Source of the DNA: Candidatus Saccharimonadota bacterium
Lineage (GTDB): Bacteria > Patescibacteriota > Saccharimonadia > Saccharimonadales > Saccharimonadaceae
Direction of reading: 5' to 3'
Assembly (NCBI GenBank): GCA_016196195.1
Contig: JACPYF010000013.1
Location: 1 to 36,407, forward strand
DNA length: 36,407 nucleotides
This document shows, piece after piece, positions 9,267 through 36,400 of the stretch. A program made the translations under genes and the position numbers. A model generated the notes under the pieces. That model was not told where the DNA came from. It worked only from the letters and a program-made list of their open reading frames with translations, and ran no database searches. How positions within the stretch are numbered: position 1 is the first letter of the stretch; the number at the start of each line of letters is the position of its first letter.

Positions 9267-9353
9267 GCGCGAGTGGCGGAATTGGTAGACGCGCCAGCTT
9301 GAGGGGCTGGTGAGCTTCGGCTCATGGAGGTTCAAGTCCTCTCTCGCGCACCA
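9267..9353 (+). tRNA. tRNA-Leu (GAG), CCA encoded
   Basis: Acceptor GCGCGAG/CTCGCGC, anticodon stem CCAGC-TTGAGGG-GCTGG, long variable arm, T-loop GGTTCAAGTCC, ACCA. Confidence 0.93.
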
Positions 9354-10933
9354 AGTTGAATTTTCTTGCTTTGAAGCAGGGTTGCAAAGGGTTCTTTCCA
9401 GAGGTAGGAAGGAGCCCTTTCGTCATCTAAATGTATGTTCAAAAGCAAAATTCTAGCCAAAATGTCTTTTTCAACTGATGTACCAGCTCTCATCTTGTCA
9501 GCAACAGAATTAGCCAAGTTCAAAAACTCTTCTTTTTTCATCTTGATTTGTGCTGGATCAGTCACTTTTTTGCCTATTTCTGCTATCTTTTCGTCTAGGT
9601 CAATCACTGTGTTTTCTAGGTCTTCTAGGTCTTGTACGAGCGTTTTGCGTGCAATCTCAGGCGTACCCTCTGGCAGCCCAGTTAGCTGACGAGCTTTGGT
9701 GTCTAATTCTTTCTTCCTGTGTTTCCTAGCACCTTCTAGGCTACGTCGTTCTGCACGTAGTCCTTGCACCTTTTCCTCGGTATAGCCGTCTATGGTCTTG
9801 CTGTACTTATCATATTCTTTTTCAGTGAACTTCATCTGCTCTAATACCTGATACAGGTCATTAAATATGTACTTAGCACGAACGCTCTTGATGCTACGTT
9901 TGCACGCCTTATTGTCGCAACGATACGTTAGACCATATTCACCGCTTGCAGACTTATTCTTGCCTACACGCATAGGTATAGTGCTATAACACACGCCACA
10001 GAATACCAACCCACGTAGAGGATAAAACGTTGCACGCTTAGAAAACGGAAGCACTCTCGCACGCTTCTGGCTCATAGCTTGAATGGCATTGTATGTGTCC
10101 TCATTTATCATAGGCTTGAAGTTGCTGATTTGCCGCATATCAACTTCCTGACCCGATTGGACCAAAATGCCAAAGTAAAAAGGGTCGTGAAACAGATGGG
10201 ATGCTATCTGTTTAGTGATAGTAATTTTTCTTATTTTCTTATTTTTGCGAGTTATTTTGGTCATGCGGTGAACGTCATTTTTCGCCCAAAAGTCTACAAT
10301 CTCAGTCACCGTGTGACCATCGGCACGCATTTGCCATCCTCGTTGGATTAAGTCAAAGTTCTTGGGGTCTGGCTCATAGTAGCCTGTGACTTCATCACGC
10401 ATATATCCCCACTTGAACGCACCAGATTTTCCTTTTTCAAAGCTACTTCCAACACCTCTTCGAATGTTCTCGCTCGAACTGTCTGTGTAGTTCTTCGCCA
10501 TTGCAAATAGGATATTCAGCAGTAGCTTGCCAGCAGCGTTGTTTGTGTATTGTACAGTTGGGAACTTTAAGTCCTTGATGATGCCACTATCTAGCATATC
10601 CATAATCATGCCGCTCTCAAGCATTGTGCGGCTCAGTCTATCAGGGTGCCAGCTTAAAATGCCATCGTATTTGCCAGCGGTAATGTCAGCAAGCATTTGC
10701 GTAAATAAAGGCCTATTGTTGGCTGTCCATGCTGACCCATTTTCCTCAATAGGATCGCCAACAACTATCAGCTCCTCACGCTCGGCATACTCCTGACAGA
10801 ACTTTATTTGGTCAGGTACAGACTGTGCTTGTGCGTCTTCTCCCTCGGATGACTTGCGGGCATAAAGTACATAGCGTAGTGGTTTCGCTGGCTCCTCTGT
10901 ATGCTGTACTGGTCTTTTTAGTATCTTGCCCAT
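9332..10933 (-). CDS. Large serine recombinase (site-specific integrase)
   Basis: YVLYARKSSEGEDAQAQSVPDQIKFC resolvase N-domain; SWHPDRLSRT; recombinase domain; zinc ribbon FCGVCYS...YRCDNKACKRS; C-terminal coiled coil. Stop codon lies inside tRNA-Leu. Confidence 0.93.
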   Translation of the reverse strand: MGKILKRPVQHTEEPAKPLRYVLYARKSSEGEDAQAQSVPDQIKFCQEYAEREELIVVGDPIEENGSAWTANNRPLFTQMLADITAGKYDGILSWHPDRLSRTMLESGMIMDMLDSGIIKDLKFPTVQYTNNAAGKLLLNILFAMAKNYTDSSSENIRRGVGSSFEKGKSGAFKWGYMRDEVTGYYEPDPKNFDLIQRGWQMRADGHTVTEIVDFWAKNDVHRMTKITRKNKKIRKITITKQIASHLFHDPFYFGILVQSGQEVDMRQISNFKPMINEDTYNAIQAMSQKRARVLPFSKRATFYPLRGLVFCGVCYSTIPMRVGKNKSASGEYGLTYRCDNKACKRSIKSVRAKYIFNDLYQVLEQMKFTEKEYDKYSKTIDGYTEEKVQGLRAERRSLEGARKHRKKELDTKARQLTGLPEGTPEIARKTLVQDLEDLENTVIDLDEKIAEIGKKVTDPAQIKMKKEEFLNLANSVADKMRAGTSVEKDILARILLLNIHLDDERAPSYLWKEPFATLLQSKKIQLGARERT

Positions 10934-10950
10934 AATATAATTCTACCTGA

Positions 10951-11148
10951 CTAGAAGTAGATACGACCACCATTATTGTCTGACATTGAGATGGCATTTA
11001 ATTTTGCTAATGAGCTATTCTCGTCTATGGCTTTAAGAGCATCTGTGTACTCTATTAGTCCGTCGTCAACATTTGTTTTCTTTGGCTTTTTGTTTGGTAT
11101 AACTACGTGGACAACATTATTGCTCACTCTGGTTCTTTCTTGAACCAC
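10951..11148 (-). CDS. Small hypothetical protein upstream of the serine integrase
   Basis: 65-aa ORF with GTG start, downstream of a near-consensus minus-strand promoter. Confidence 0.35.
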   Translation of the reverse strand: MVQERTRVSNNVVHVVIPNKKPKKTNVDDGLIEYTDALKAIDENSSLAKLNAISMSDNNGGRIYF

Positions 11149-11214
11149 GAGAACGACTTAGTGTCGAACCCCTACCGAGAATGCCGTATACCTGTGTCTA
11201 GCCTGGAATCAAAA

Positions 11215-11275
11215 GAACGTACCAGGTCAGAGAGCTTCAAGTCTACTACTTAAAACAATCTGGTATGGTACGTTC
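11215..11275 (-). promoter_or_regulatory. Inverted repeat in the 5' leader of the integrase transcript
   Basis: GAACGTACCA (11215-11224) pairs with TGGTACGTTC (11266-11275), just downstream of the minus-strand promoter. Confidence 0.5.
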
Positions 11276-11283
11276 CATCTTTA

Positions 11284-11312
11284 ATTATACGCCTTACCAT
11301 AAGAATTGTCAA
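11284..11312 (-). promoter_or_regulatory. Consensus sigma70-type promoter reading toward the integrase
   Basis: Minus strand TTGACA (11307-11312), 17-nt spacer, TATAAT (11284-11289). Confidence 0.7.
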
Positions 11313-11374
11313 GTCGAAATGTTGTTTTTGAGATAATAAGAACAGAGATAACGCCGAAAACAAAGGAGTAAAAA

Positions 11375-11608
11375 ATGGAAATCGGAAAAGCTATTGGTAG
11401 ACCGCCTAAAGTAACATACACTACTATGTTACGTCTTGAAGATTCGATACAACATAACAGCACAATCACTGAGGCTTGTCGCTGGGCTGGCATAAGTCGG
11501 ACCACTTTCTTCTATTACATGAGGAATAGCGTGGTGTTTAAGGAGAAGATGGAAGCCGCAAAAGATAACCAGAACAAAGTGGTATTTAGTTTCTTTACAC
11601 TTGTCTAG
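11375..11608 (+). CDS. Small HTH protein (phage-like homeodomain/terminase-small-like HTH)
   Basis: GRPPKVTYTTMLRLEDSIQHNSTITEACRWAGISRTTFFYYMRNSVVFKEKMEAAKDN; good RBS AAAGGAG. Confidence 0.6.
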   Translation: MEIGKAIGRPPKVTYTTMLRLEDSIQHNSTITEACRWAGISRTTFFYYMRNSVVFKEKMEAAKDNQNKVVFSFFTLV

Positions 11609-11866
11609 GAAAGCCCCTATTTTCGCTACATTTTCGTAGATTTTGGAGTGCAGAAAGTAGCTAAGTAATACGAGCAAATGACGTTAAGTAGTAAAAAAAT
11701 GGCCAAAAATTATGTAGAGTATTGCACGGTATCACATCAGGCAAAAAGATGAACGGTTCTAGCACTCTCTGTGACGCATTTGGAGACCGTTTGAGCGTGT
11801 TTTGGGGTCGAGTTGAGTATTTGTGCTATCCCTGTAGATTTTGCAGTATTTCCCTGTTAAAATGAA

Positions 11867-12427
11867 ATGGTGAAAGACGCAAAAATACACTCGCAAAAAA
11901 TCAGACAAGAAGCAAATAAGTTGCTTGAAGAAACACGTCTTTACGCATTACTTGAGCAGTTCGGCAAGGTGGATTTAGGTGGTAGTTATGCTTATGACTT
12001 AATGGTTGACAGAGATTTGGATTTTGGAGTTGCAGTGAAAGAAATAACTCCAGAAATTAGGGCTAAGTTAGCATCAACATTTGCGTCACAGATTTGGGCT
12101 TATAGTGTCAACATGACTGATAGAGTGAACTTTGAGCCTTTATCTAACTTGGGAGCACCTAGAGGACTATTCTTAGGCTTAACCATACCATTCCCTGTAG
12201 AGCGATGGAATATAGATATTTGGTTCATAGTTGTTGATGCTTTGCCGACAGATGCTATGGCTAGTCTTATTTCAAAAGCAACAGAAGCTCAGAAAGATAC
12301 TATTTTACAAATTAAATACGAGCTAATGATTGATGGAAAGAAATCAAAAGGAATCACTTCTGCTGAAGTTTATAAGGCTGTGTTGAATAATGGAGTTAAG
12401 ACAACTAGGGAGTTTTTGAATGAATAG
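11867..12427 (+). CDS. Nucleotidyltransferase-fold protein
   Basis: GGSYAYDLMVDRDLDFGV resembles the NTase GG[ST]...DxD signature. Confidence 0.55.
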   Translation: MVKDAKIHSQKIRQEANKLLEETRLYALLEQFGKVDLGGSYAYDLMVDRDLDFGVAVKEITPEIRAKLASTFASQIWAYSVNMTDRVNFEPLSNLGAPRGLFLGLTIPFPVERWNIDIWFIVVDALPTDAMASLISKATEAQKDTILQIKYELMIDGKKSKGITSAEVYKAVLNNGVKTTREFLNE

Positions 12428-12893
12428 CGTTGATTTAGACGAACTCAAGAAGTTCCTCATGAATGCAAATATGCCTCATGCAACAGGTACGGCAAAAACC
12501 GTTAAGGAAAATGACGGTTCACGAACTATTGAATTTATTGAGGGCGACTACCGAATGCATGACAACTTCTTTGGAGGTGAGCCCTATGGTGGACGCTTAG
12601 TTGTTTTCTATCAAGAGCAGCCGTTGTTTCTTGAAGTTTATTACGGACAGACAACTCGTCCAGCAGATACTGTCTATGATTTCTTAAGAGAAGCCTTACA
12701 GCATCCAGGAGAAGATAACCCATTTCGTGGACCTGCTGAATACAAAAAAGACAATCTGACCTACAAAAGCACTACTGAGGGCAATGTTGCGAACCATACG
12801 GTTAAAGAGTTTATCTACGACGGAGATGAAGAGATTTACTGGGCAGTTGTTATTGGTGGTTTAGTAGACCAAAATGCAAGAGGAGCAATGTAA
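12420..12893 (+). CDS. DUF5680-like protein
   Basis: EGDYRMHDNFFGGEPYGGRLVVFYQEQPLFLEVYYG...FLREALQ...FRGPAEY pattern recalled from that family. Confidence 0.5.
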   Translation: MNSVDLDELKKFLMNANMPHATGTAKTVKENDGSRTIEFIEGDYRMHDNFFGGEPYGGRLVVFYQEQPLFLEVYYGQTTRPADTVYDFLREALQHPGEDNPFRGPAEYKKDNLTYKSTTEGNVANHTVKEFIYDGDEEIYWAVVIGGLVDQNARGAM

Positions 12894-12895
12894 TC

Positions 12896-13336
12896 ATGGT
12901 ATTGGTAATAAACCCTGAAATTGAAATCAAAAATTCCCCTATTCAAGGGAAAGGTCTATTTACCAAAGTCCCAATTAAAAAGGGAGAGACGGTTTGGATT
13001 TCTGAGGGTGAAGAACCCTATGATGAAAAGATATACACTGACGAGGAGTTTAAGGAATTTCAAAAGTGGTGTATTGAGAATGGTAAGGAGTGGGACGCTG
13101 TAGCTAATGGGGATGGAACTCATACGGCTGCAATTTCTGAAAGAGAGAAGCATCCAGGCAATTATGGTAATCATAGCTGTGATCCTAATATGGGTAAAGG
13201 GTACGTTGCTCTCAGAGACATAAAAGCTGGCGAAGAACTGACTGCTGATTATGCTCAGTTCTCTACAAAAGACTGGGAGATGAAGTGCAACTGTGGAGCA
13301 AAGAATTGCAAAGGAACCGTTAGAGGAGCACTGTGA
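12896..13336 (+). CDS. SET domain protein with post-SET-like Cys cluster
   Basis: SPIQGKGLFTKVPIKKGE...GNHSCDPNMG...IKAGEELTADYAQF...MKCNCGAKNCKGTVRG. Confidence 0.8.
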   Translation: MVLVINPEIEIKNSPIQGKGLFTKVPIKKGETVWISEGEEPYDEKIYTDEEFKEFQKWCIENGKEWDAVANGDGTHTAAISEREKHPGNYGNHSCDPNMGKGYVALRDIKAGEELTADYAQFSTKDWEMKCNCGAKNCKGTVRGAL

Positions 13337-13824
13337 TTATTCAGATAGATGGCATATCAGGAACTGGCAAAACAACTGCCGCAGAAGAACTCGCTAGGCG
13401 GGGATACACTGCCCTTGATGCTGATGAGTCATTTGGTTACTACGGGAACCCAGAAACAGGAGAGCCAACCGATGAGCGAACCCAGCATAATTGGATTTGG
13501 GATATAGATAAGGTTAAAACACTGGCAGTGTCATCAGGAGACACCACTATCTTTGTTTGTGGCGGAGCTATGAATCAAGACAGAGTTAGGGATATTTTTG
13601 ATAAAAGATTTACATTAGTAATCGACAATGACACTATGCGTCATCGACTCATGACTCGAACAAATAACGAGTTTGGTAAGCATCCAGATGACCTTGCACG
13701 ACAGCTTGAATGGAATAAGGGAGCTACTGAATACGCAAAGAGCATCGGAGCAATAGTTATTGACGCAACTAAACCTATTGAACAGGTTGTGGACAATATT
13801 TTGAGGGAATCAGGTGTCGAATAA
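13333..13824 (+). CDS. P-loop nucleoside/nucleotide kinase-like protein
   Basis: IIQIDGISGTGKTTAAEELARRGYTALDADE Walker A; overlaps SET gene stop; GTG start. Confidence 0.7.
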   Translation: MIIQIDGISGTGKTTAAEELARRGYTALDADESFGYYGNPETGEPTDERTQHNWIWDIDKVKTLAVSSGDTTIFVCGGAMNQDRVRDIFDKRFTLVIDNDTMRHRLMTRTNNEFGKHPDDLARQLEWNKGATEYAKSIGAIVIDATKPIEQVVDNILRESGVE

Positions 13825-14341
13825 TATGAGGCTTATAGTGGTCAATCTACCACAGTACAGAGTTGATACTGAACCCAATCATAAAGTAATAGGCAAAATA
13901 GTCGATAAGGTAATACAAGAGAATTTTACTGGCAAGACCATAGTTGTACGAGGTGTAAGCTCTTCTGCCCATTCAGATAAGTCGGTTGATGAACTGGTTG
14001 AAATAATCAAGGATTCAGGTACAGACCGTTATGACCAAAAACGTATTGGTGATAGGTATGAGAATATCAAAGGTAAGCATATAGACTTGTTCGCATTTCG
14101 CAGAAAAGTTACGCCACGCATGGAGGTATTCAAAGACATTAGCTGGGGTTTCTATCATGGGTCTAGGACAATTCATGGCAAGCCAGTACGTATAGATATT
14201 CTGACAGTCTATGATGCTTCACAACTTAGGGCAGTAGTACACCAGTATGAAGGACGTGATGATATTAAGCGTGATGGTTTCGTCTTCAAGAATCCAAGTG
14301 ATAAGAAATCTGCCGTCTTAGGCATAATAAAAATTACATAA
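13814..14341 (+). CDS. Hypothetical protein, last gene of the island operon
   Basis: 175-aa ORF overlapping the upstream kinase ORF by 11 nt, same strand. Confidence 0.6.
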   Translation: MSNNMRLIVVNLPQYRVDTEPNHKVIGKIVDKVIQENFTGKTIVVRGVSSSAHSDKSVDELVEIIKDSGTDRYDQKRIGDRYENIKGKHIDLFAFRRKVTPRMEVFKDISWGFYHGSRTIHGKPVRIDILTVYDASQLRAVVHQYEGRDDIKRDGFVFKNPSDKKSAVLGIIKIT

Positions 14342-14477
14342 TTTCGATTGTTGTATAGTAGGTTTTTTAACAGGGGTGGGCGAAAATAACACAAGCACTT
14401 GACAAGCCCCTATGTCGCTAAAAAAATGGCTCTACCCCTGTAAGCATGGGGCGTACAAGCTCCATTGTGCGACATTG

Positions 14478-15260
14478 TTACAAGTACTTTGGCGTTGCAC
14501 TGATTACCGTAAATCCTTCGTATGGATTCTCTCCTGCTGATGTTATCATCTCGCTAAATGTAAGTTGAGATATGTTCACGGTAAGCTTATCTGTGTCAAT
14601 CTTGGTTACAAATGGAACCTTGTCGTTCATGTCAGGAAGCTGAATTGTTTTTGGTGGTGCAGTATCGAATTGGTCACTGTGTCTTGTAAAGATAAGTACA
14701 TCAAAGTCCTTGAATCGTAGTCGGTGCGTATTGAAGTTCAGATGGACAGGCTTGTCGTTCTCCATATCCCAGTTGAAATTGAAGTTTATGTTGCTTGAAG
14801 CAGGTATTGCAATGACATCTAGCGTAGTAAATTTCTGGCTACTGTCCCGTTCTAACGGTACATCATTTTGACGTGTCATCTCTTTAATATCATCGTCAGA
14901 CATCTCTCTACATAGTAGTGTCGTCAGGTGCTTTGAGGTTTTTAGACCCTCTAGAGGTATCGTAATCGCATCTTTGTCGTTTGTAACTGTCTTAGTGCCG
15001 TCTTTCATTTTAGTATGAGATTGTCCTGTTGCATGTATGCTTGTATGGTCAATATCTACAGGTTCGCTGACTTGCTCGTATCTTATATCAAATGGGTTAC
15101 TCTCTATCTTTAGCTTGCCTAACGTACCACCTGATCCACCTTCCTTCGGATAAATATGTAGCATTAAGCTGACATCAGATTTTTGTTGCCATAGTCTACA
15201 TAGAAGGTATGTCTTATCTCCTTCTTTTATAAAAATGCGATAGTGCGGTGCTTTCTCCAT
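14478..15260 (-). CDS. Hypothetical protein of unknown function
   Basis: 260-aa uninterrupted ORF; no recognisable domain. Confidence 0.6.
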   Translation of the reverse strand: MEKAPHYRIFIKEGDKTYLLCRLWQQKSDVSLMLHIYPKEGGSGGTLGKLKIESNPFDIRYEQVSEPVDIDHTSIHATGQSHTKMKDGTKTVTNDKDAITIPLEGLKTSKHLTTLLCREMSDDDIKEMTRQNDVPLERDSSQKFTTLDVIAIPASSNINFNFNWDMENDKPVHLNFNTHRLRFKDFDVLIFTRHSDQFDTAPPKTIQLPDMNDKVPFVTKIDTDKLTVNISQLTFSEMITSAGENPYEGFTVISATPKYL

Positions 15261-15310
15261 AGATATATCATAACAGGGGTAGGTTCAAATCTCTTCGGTT
15301 AGTAATAACG

Positions 15311-15463
15311 TTAGTAGGCATAATTTGCCTCTAACATCTGTTGCGACCTCTGAGCCATCGTTACTTGAGGTAGTCTAAATACGGTCTGGTTTTGGTTTTC
15401 AAATAGCCACTGTGCTATCTTATAGATGAGTTCAAAAGCAATCGCTTTTGGTGCACCAGACAT
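15311..15463 (-). CDS. Possible 50-aa small protein (below ORF-track cutoff)
   Basis: Minus strand ATG to TAA: MSGAPKAIAFELIYKIAQWLFENQNQTVFRLPQVTMAQRSQQMLEANYAY; no clear RBS. Confidence 0.35.
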   Translation of the reverse strand: MSGAPKAIAFELIYKIAQWLFENQNQTVFRLPQVTMAQRSQQMLEANYAY

Positions 15464-15470
15464 AATGAAA

Positions 15471-15490
15471 ACCCTACACTGCTGTAGGGT
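15471..15490 (-). terminator. Intrinsic terminator hairpin (possibly bidirectional)
   Basis: ACCCTACA-ctgc-TGTAGGGT; minus strand followed by TTTTCATT. Confidence 0.6.
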
Positions 15491-15803
15491 TTATTAAATT
15501 CTATGAAATGTGACGCACAGAGGGTGCCGAGCTGGGTCGAGGCGTTTATAGCCTCGACCCAGGACTCTCGTTCTCTTTCATCCCTGGACTCAAAGCGTGA
15601 GCTAGAGACCTCCGAGGGGGATTTTGTGAGAACGTTGGTATGCAGCTGTCGTCATACAACGCCGGTTTTGAATTGCTGGAAACAAGCTCCAGCGACGGAC
15701 GTTGACTTCGATTGACTGGCTTCTTGCCCGTCTTTGCCTGCTGCTTTTTCACGCTACACACTCCCTTGTGCGTCACTTGACAGCCAGGATGAACTCCCAA
15801 CTT
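15491..15803 (-). ncRNA. Candidate structured ncRNA copy A
   Basis: Closing helix 15510-15519/15767-15776 (GTGACGCACA/TGTGCGTCAC); hairpin 15532-15562 (12 bp, 7-nt loop); helix CGTTCTC/GAGAACG (15569-15575/15628-15634); promoter at 15810-15838 and terminator at 15471. Confidence 0.6.
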
Positions 15804-15809
15804 GTTTTC

Positions 15810-15838
15810 ATTATACACTAATAAACTAAAAAAAGCAA
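15810..15838 (-). promoter_or_regulatory. Putative promoter of ncRNA copy A
   Basis: Minus strand TATAAT at 15810-15815, weak -35 TTGCTT 17 nt upstream. Confidence 0.5.
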
Positions 15839-16039
15839 GCATAAGCTTGCTCTAATCAGGGGTAGGGCTTGCTACCTATATAAGCGTAACTACGATTGTC
15901 CACCACAACAACTCCATTAGTACGTATAGGCACACACTCCCTACCTGTTTGCGATAATACCATAAGCCTATTTACATTAAAATAGAACGGCTGCATATTG
16001 CTGTGGAAAACTATAGCCGGCAAGTATATACTTGGTTCA

Positions 16040-35284: not shown

Positions 35285-35575
35285 AGACAAGGAGAACCCC
35301 TAACTGCGCCGCGTCCAGTTTGAAAATGTTCGGAGTGCCGGCAGCAGGCGCACACCGGGGGACACTCCGACAACTCGTGGTGGACGACGGATGCTATTCA
35401 CTGGCCCTTCCGTTGCCCGCCACGCAGTCTTATCCCATGATGCGCATTTGATGTCGAGTGGAGCTCCAAACTACCCCACTCGACCGTGCATTTGCGGCGT
35501 CCTGGAGCGGGTAGGTGCGGCCATTTCTAGCCGCACCTACCCGAACCTGGCGTTCTCCTTGTCTTAATTTTTTTT
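35285..35575 (+). ncRNA. Candidate structured ncRNA copy B
   Basis: Closing helix 35285-35297/35552-35564 (13 bp perfect) followed by T8; hairpin 35508-35543 (14 bp); helix ATGCGC/GTGCAT (35440-35445/35486-35491) enclosing 9-bp GTCGAGTGG/CCACTCGAC. Confidence 0.65.
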
Positions 35576-35671: not shown

Positions 35672-36025
35672 GGTAGAAGAACCCGCTACGCGAAGAGTTC
35701 TCCCGCAGCTCCAATACAAACAAAGACGAGAAAAAAGCTTTCAACAAAAACTTGTAGGGCCGTTCATTGGAAATGTAGATCATCGCACGCTAGCGCATAG
35801 AATGTGCTTGTGGCAGAAGAGCTACAATATTTCCGAGTGATTGAAAGGTCACGCCAGACCCAGCGCAAGGAATTGCACTGGTGTAAATCACCATGATAGC
35901 GCCAGAGGAGGCCTCCTAATCTACTGGAAGCCCGCAAAGTGCTATCGCCTCTCTAAGCAAGTTCCCGACGGGTGGCGCTCATCACGAGCGTCACCCGTCA
36001 CGAGGCTTTTTCTCGTCTTTTTTCA
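35672..36025 (+). ncRNA. Candidate structured ncRNA copy C
   Basis: Closing helix 35725-35738/36007-36019 (GACGAGAAAAAAGC/GCTTTTTCTCGTC, one bulged A) followed by T6; hairpin 35969-36001 (14 bp); helix GATAGC/GCTATC (35895-35900/35943-35948); CCATGAT shared with copy B. Confidence 0.65.
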
Positions 36026-36083: not shown

Positions 36084-36089
36084 TTTATG

Positions 36090-36400
36090 AAATCGGGCAT
36101 CCAGCCTGATCAACCAAAAGGCAAGTGATCGGATGACACAGAACGTTCTGACCCCTCGCGCCGCGGCACGCGGTAGCACCTCAGAGACGCTGATGAGCAC
36201 CACCTCGAACGCCGCGGACCGCGGCGCCCACGCGATCACCTCGGACGCCGCAGAGGCCTCCTCGGGCTGACGCCGGCGCGCACAACTTCGTAGATCCTGA
36301 CTCGGGAGGGTCAACAGTCATACCAGACAGTTGGATCACGAAGGCAGACCTACCCGGGCAGCACCATTCATTTGGTGCTGCCCGGGGGGTCCATTTTTTT
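36090..36400 (+). ncRNA. Possible fourth structured RNA (copy D) or short-ORF transcript
   Basis: Own promoter; helix CTTCGTaGATCC/GGATCACGAAG (36286-36297/36333-36343); 13-bp hairpin 36353-36386; T7 tract 36394-36400. No closing helix found. Confidence 0.4.

Follow-up and report, generated by a model that had tools for sequence, protein, structure and literature searches.

RNAIII of Staphylococcus aureus is a highly structured, dual-function RNA with closed ends that encodes a small peptide. Single genes such as icaR, and the toxins hok and aapA, already provide examples of bacterial messages whose two ends pair with each other. In the icaR mRNA of S. aureus, a motif in the 3'UTR pairs with the Shine–Dalgarno (SD) sequence, blocks ribosome loading, and makes a substrate for RNase III (PMC3868564). 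In the case of hok and aapA, the paired ends hold the full-length mRNA in an inactive state, which lasts until 3' processing takes place (PMC6733600).

Here, we describe a locus, element A, in a genome of 585 kb from a member of the Saccharimonadaceae. The window, that is, the whole stretch of DNA that was analysed, is 36,407 nucleotides long. The features of A, all of which can be read on the minus strand, are as follows.

15810 to 15837, minus strand: promoter region with both boxes, from the sequence
15837-15832, minus strand: weak -35-like TTGCTT, conserved in the orthologue A' and overlapping the terminator of the preceding element
15815-15810, minus strand: -10 box TATAAT, read from the sequence and conserved in A'
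15776-15767, minus strand: 5' closing strand GTGACGCACA, from fold and scanner
15766-15761, minus strand: SD-like AGGGAG, directly after GTGACGCACA and partly paired too
15546 to 15752, minus strand: predicted 68-codon ORF (suggestive), with a GTG start at 15752 and its TAA at 15548-15546 in the hairpin loop
15634-15628, minus strand: CGTTCTC of the "central helix", with partner GAGAACG, from the sequence
15532 to 15562, minus strand: perfect 12-bp 3' hairpin, CTGGGTCGAGGC-TATAAAC-GCCTCGACCCAG, from fold and scanner
15525 to 15531, minus strand: linker CTCGGCA from hairpin to closing strand, identical in A'
15510 to 15524, minus strand: full 3' closing strand CCCTCTGTGCGTCAC, whose partner is the 5'UTR together with part of the SD, from fold and scanner
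15519-15510, minus strand: core of the 3' closing strand, TGTGCGTCAC, from the sequence
15469 to 15492, minus strand: terminator hairpin AAACCCTACAGCAGTGTAGGGTTT followed by T, from the sequence and conserved in A'

The fold prediction gives a closing helix of 10 bp, lengthened by AGGG/CCCT with a bulge, and the distance from CGTTCTC to the 3' hairpin is 72 nt. The promoter box, both helices, the AGGG/CCCT extension, the hairpin, this distance, and the terminator had all been predicted, and each is present on the minus strand where it was placed; the terminator extends slightly beyond the range first given (15491-15815). GTCCTGG does occur next to the hairpin, but it overlaps the stem, its CTGG being the stem start, and does not stand ahead of the hairpin as had been described. 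Over 301 nt, A folds at -120.7 kcal/mol, compared with -90.5 +/- 5.9 for shuffled sequences (z -5.10), and 0/100 dinucleotide shuffles fold as well. A is likely an RNA of roughly 310 nt whose two ends pair and thereby cover a probable ribosome-binding site. Rfam searches with A and its related elements gave no credible match at gathering or permissive thresholds, and BLASTN of A against 41 relatives and phages gave no match beyond chance.

Element A is native to its genome. It was said to lie between an island and rsmD, and a syntenic genome free of the island agrees with this: in G001, the only genome of the same genus that was compared with the window, the order rsmD, element X, an A-like locus (A'), terminator, tRNA-Leu, and typA is unbroken and has no island. 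In the window, the island separates tRNA-Leu from A; because it lies between the two and is absent at the G001 site, A is outside it. The GCACCA of the tRNA end recurs at the right island junction. A contig search for a third member of the genus found only G001 and one different genus, and A is known in two species only. The island carries genes for a SET-domain protein, a DUF5680 protein, and a small P-loop kinase-like protein, and also contains an inverted repeat.

9332 to 15446 (about 9353 to 15446, some 6.1 kb, by the junctions as we read them): island of about 6 kb, with a serine recombinase beside tRNA-Leu(GAG)
11215 to 11275, plus strand: imperfect inverted repeat of 28 nt with a 5-nt spacer, within the island
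15850 to 15985 (also L039-L058), minus strand of the window: element X, a putative small RNA of about 100 nt just upstream of A, with its own promoter and terminator

Element X deserves a description in its own right. Its core, GTTGTTGTGGTGGACAATCGTAGTTA, was present in 131/198 of the family genomes searched (46/61 genera). In 42 of the 45 loci checked, X sits on the coding strand within the rsmD 3' end; this genus differs, with X outside rsmD and on the opposite strand. The consensus fold has a z of -6.7 against column shuffles, with a few two-sided changes, and Rfam returned no match for X. It would be a putative small RNA that sits inside a housekeeping gene and has changed its place in one genus.

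Comparing A with A' separates what is kept from what is replaced. Both possess the promoter, closing helix, 3' hairpin, CTCGGCA linker, and terminator. The closing strands differ in sequence with their pairing retained, and the hairpin has 12 bp at the same place in both, again with a different sequence. The interiors (198 nt in A, 272 nt in A') align no better than shuffled sequences (z 0.2), whereas the neighbours are well conserved between the window and G001, rsmD being 77% and element X 91% identical. Neither the "central helix" nor GTCCTGG of A has a counterpart in A'. An ORF occupies the corresponding position at either locus, 68 codons long in A and 93 in A', and the two peptides are unrelated, so the 68-codon ORF is not conserved as a protein. 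In A', an SD (GGAGG) is predicted inside the closing helix. The best explanation in our judgement, held at the odds of the whole reading given below, is that the content of the frame changes fast and that the frame is what selection keeps.

One way of finding further frames is a scanner that targets the closing helix and the 3' hairpin; its thresholds were set after A and the two other elements of the window, B and C, were known. On both strands of the 36-kb window, A, B, and C were the only matches. Markov sequence, which does not model all features of real DNA, gave 11 weak matches in 2 Mb, and 0/11 had a terminator. By these counts the scanner is highly specific, and finding a closing helix together with a 3' hairpin exceeds chance. 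A further 426 kb of the same genome contained one convincing new locus, element E, the remaining matches having short closing helices and no terminator. Match L105 was rejected: it is antisense to a gene read as mscL-like and folds more poorly. These elements and their orthologues are listed below, together with element D, which lies at the contig end and is the fourth structured transcript.

35285 to 35565, plus strand: element B, with closing helix AGACAAGGAGAAC/GTTCTCCTTGTCT and a 14-bp 3' hairpin, from scanner and fold; orthologue B'
35722 to 36020, plus strand: element C, with closing helix AAAGACGAGAAAAA/TTTTTCTCGTCTTT and a 14-bp 3' hairpin, from scanner and fold; orthologue C'
L090 (contig C18) 15335-14860, minus strand: element E, from scanner and fold (z -6.3)
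L130 2590-3090, plus strand: E', the orthologue of E in G001
36085 to 36395 of the window, plus strand: element D, fold z -6.0
L063 683-300, minus strand: orthologue D', with a 56-codon ORF weakly similar to that of D (z 3.1)

B and C are as structured as A or more so (fold z -8.0 and -8.1, respectively). In G001, their orthologues lie upstream of rnhB in unchanged order. These too have ends that pair and a 3' hairpin, and the interiors again align poorly (z 2.7 for B and B', -0.7 for C and C'). Element D has its own promoter, a terminator hairpin, and a GC3-rich 45-codon ORF, without the closing helix of A to C; Pfam gave no match for the D and D' ORFs. When the B-C-D region was searched with BLASTN in 151 family genomes, matches were confined to the two members of the genus.

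Element E reads, in order, as a promoter, one strand of the ACAAGTAGAAGTTAT/ATAACTTCTACTTGT helix, AAGGAG, ATG, 118 codons, a 12-bp hairpin, the other closing strand, and a terminator; its 5'UTR-3'UTR helix spans 15-17 bp. E' keeps a 17-bp helix letter for letter, with a promoter region that is 92% identical, and the adjoining gene is 79% identical. The E' protein of 122 aa is weakly similar to that of E (0/500 shuffles as good, z 4.9), a likeness for which BLASTP gave no alignment. No credible homologue of the E protein was found in 151 family genomes, and Pfam had no match for the E and B' ORFs. The SD of E lies outside the helix; SD hiding is therefore not general, and the wider role of the pairing may be to protect the ends from nucleases.

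Beyond the genus, 600 kb of G074, a genome of another genus, yielded three ORF-bearing panhandles that pass the filter, encoding 147, 95, and 77 aa, with an SD in or at the helix in all three. A fourth pass (482493) is without an SD and looks spurious. The same filter gave 0 matches in 1.2 Mb of Markov sequence. In relatives of the G074 pair, the stretch between two panhandles is kept and the panhandles are not. With the terminator filter, no convincing case was seen in two further genera (400 kb each) and none in 150 kb of Escherichia coli; a looser filter without the terminator produced a few short-helix matches in E. coli and in all genomes, mostly within genes. A literature search found no description of such panhandle messages in Saccharibacteria.

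The original prediction took A, B, and C to be dispersed copies of one multicopy structured RNA, with A as the third copy. The outer frame is indeed common to the three, the 72 nt from central helix to hairpin in A is as claimed, and the spacing from hairpin to helix end is nearly equal, at 17-24 nt in 8/8 elements measured. The architecture is also dispersed as predicted, since E carries it on another contig. A, B, and C have no sequence in common, however, and when their structural profiles were aligned against controls with shuffled interiors and retained closing helix and hairpin, 20/80, 72/80, and 64/80 shuffles reached the observed score. A common fold beyond chance is thus limited to the frame, that is, a closing helix, an interior, a hairpin, and 17-24 nt to the helix end. 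The multicopy reading is largely refuted by this alignment. The linking motifs are also missing from A', and E, an ordinary gene, carries the same frame; we regard the multicopy reading as improbable. Since unrelated contents are found inside it, the frame has the look of a common device for closing small messages, not of three copies of one RNA. The case of A, B, and C also shows that an architecture can mimic copies of one RNA when the ends alone are common.

Whether A is a message is a harder question, and its main rival is a non-coding or dual role. A could be a trans-acting or protein-binding sRNA whose core is the closing helix and hairpin, the ORFs of A and A' being due to chance. Shuffling the interior still leaves an ORF that extends to the hairpin in 195/1000 cases for A and 137/1000 for A', so A alone proves nothing on coding; there is no codon-usage signal for A (for A' and E, the best score is that of frame 1), and Pfam and NCBIfam gave no match for the A and A' ORFs. 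The same frame in B, B', C, and C' encloses no convincing spanning ORF: B has an unremarkable one (395/1000 shuffles), and the other three have none. B and C also hold extra interior structure when frame and composition are retained (z -4.7 and -3.5). The complete change of interior between two close species nevertheless argues against a conserved RNA interior, and A and A' agree in having the SD inside the helix (AGGGAG and GGAGG, respectively), the start 6-8 nt further on, and the stop in the hairpin loop, all at the same relative positions. The same ORF test gives 10/1000 for E, 25/1000 for E', and 4-46/1000 for the three G074 elements, all coding within the same frame. Since these clearest members of the class code for protein, the regulatory RNA originally proposed is less likely than an mRNA with paired ends; we still count the non-coding reading as a serious possibility. 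Coding in A itself is only suggestive, and we hold with moderate confidence that A is an mRNA. Among messages, one that encodes the toxin of a type I toxin-antitoxin system and is silenced by its paired ends would resemble A in pairing its ends over the SD, which is the hok/aapA device (PMC6733600), and in its short ORF. Two tests speak against this: the 68-aa product has no hydrophobic membrane segment and is basic and hydrophilic, and a consensus scan of 15500-15800 found no promoter-like site on the plus strand, hence no antisense promoter within A. As the A' product is also unrelated, we consider a toxin very improbable.

We therefore favour, with a probability of roughly 55%, the reading of A as a native, monocistronic, small panhandle mRNA that possibly also acts as RNA. 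The frame retained in A' with its interior replaced, and its recurrence around the coding genes E, E', and those of G074, were counted for this reading. The TATAAT promoter would give rise to an RNA of about 310 nt, in which the 5'UTR and part of the SD AGGGAG are predicted to pair with the strand of the 3'UTR between the 12-bp hairpin and the terminator. By analogy with icaR and hok/aapA, the full-length RNA would be closed to ribosomes, with both ends shielded from exonucleases. The message could then be translated only once the 3' strand had been removed or pushed aside, and the hairpin would be opened by a ribosome that terminates at the stop codon in its loop. More speculatively, Saccharibacteria of this family might keep a few dispersed "slots" with a fixed panhandle frame, a small-protein content that outpaces neighbour genes, and one common opening signal (an RNase, a helicase, or host-cell contact); we think this doubtful.

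If a conserved frame with fast-evolving contents does occur at several loci within a reduced genome, and in a second genus as well, end-pairing would become a recurring design among Patescibacteria, and end-paired frames would then point to small unannotated genes there.

Set against the known systems, A is presumably comparable to RNAIII in its paired ends and small ORF, with no sequence relation. Its predicted likeness to hok and aapA is that of a short mRNA whose paired ends sequester the SD, with a small ORF inside; the differences are a hydrophilic product, the lack of an antisense promoter in A, no known 3' processing, and contents that differ between orthologues. As in icaR, the 3'UTR strand of A is complementary to the SD region, with AGGG predicted in the closing helix, and by this analogy it would block ribosome loading and offer a double-stranded target to RNase III. 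The icaR pairing, however, covers 7 nt in the long mRNA of a conserved regulator, whereas here 10-17 bp close a short message, with the SD outside the helix in E; a perfect hairpin of 12-14 bp adjoins the 3' strand, and contents with no relation to each other share the frame.
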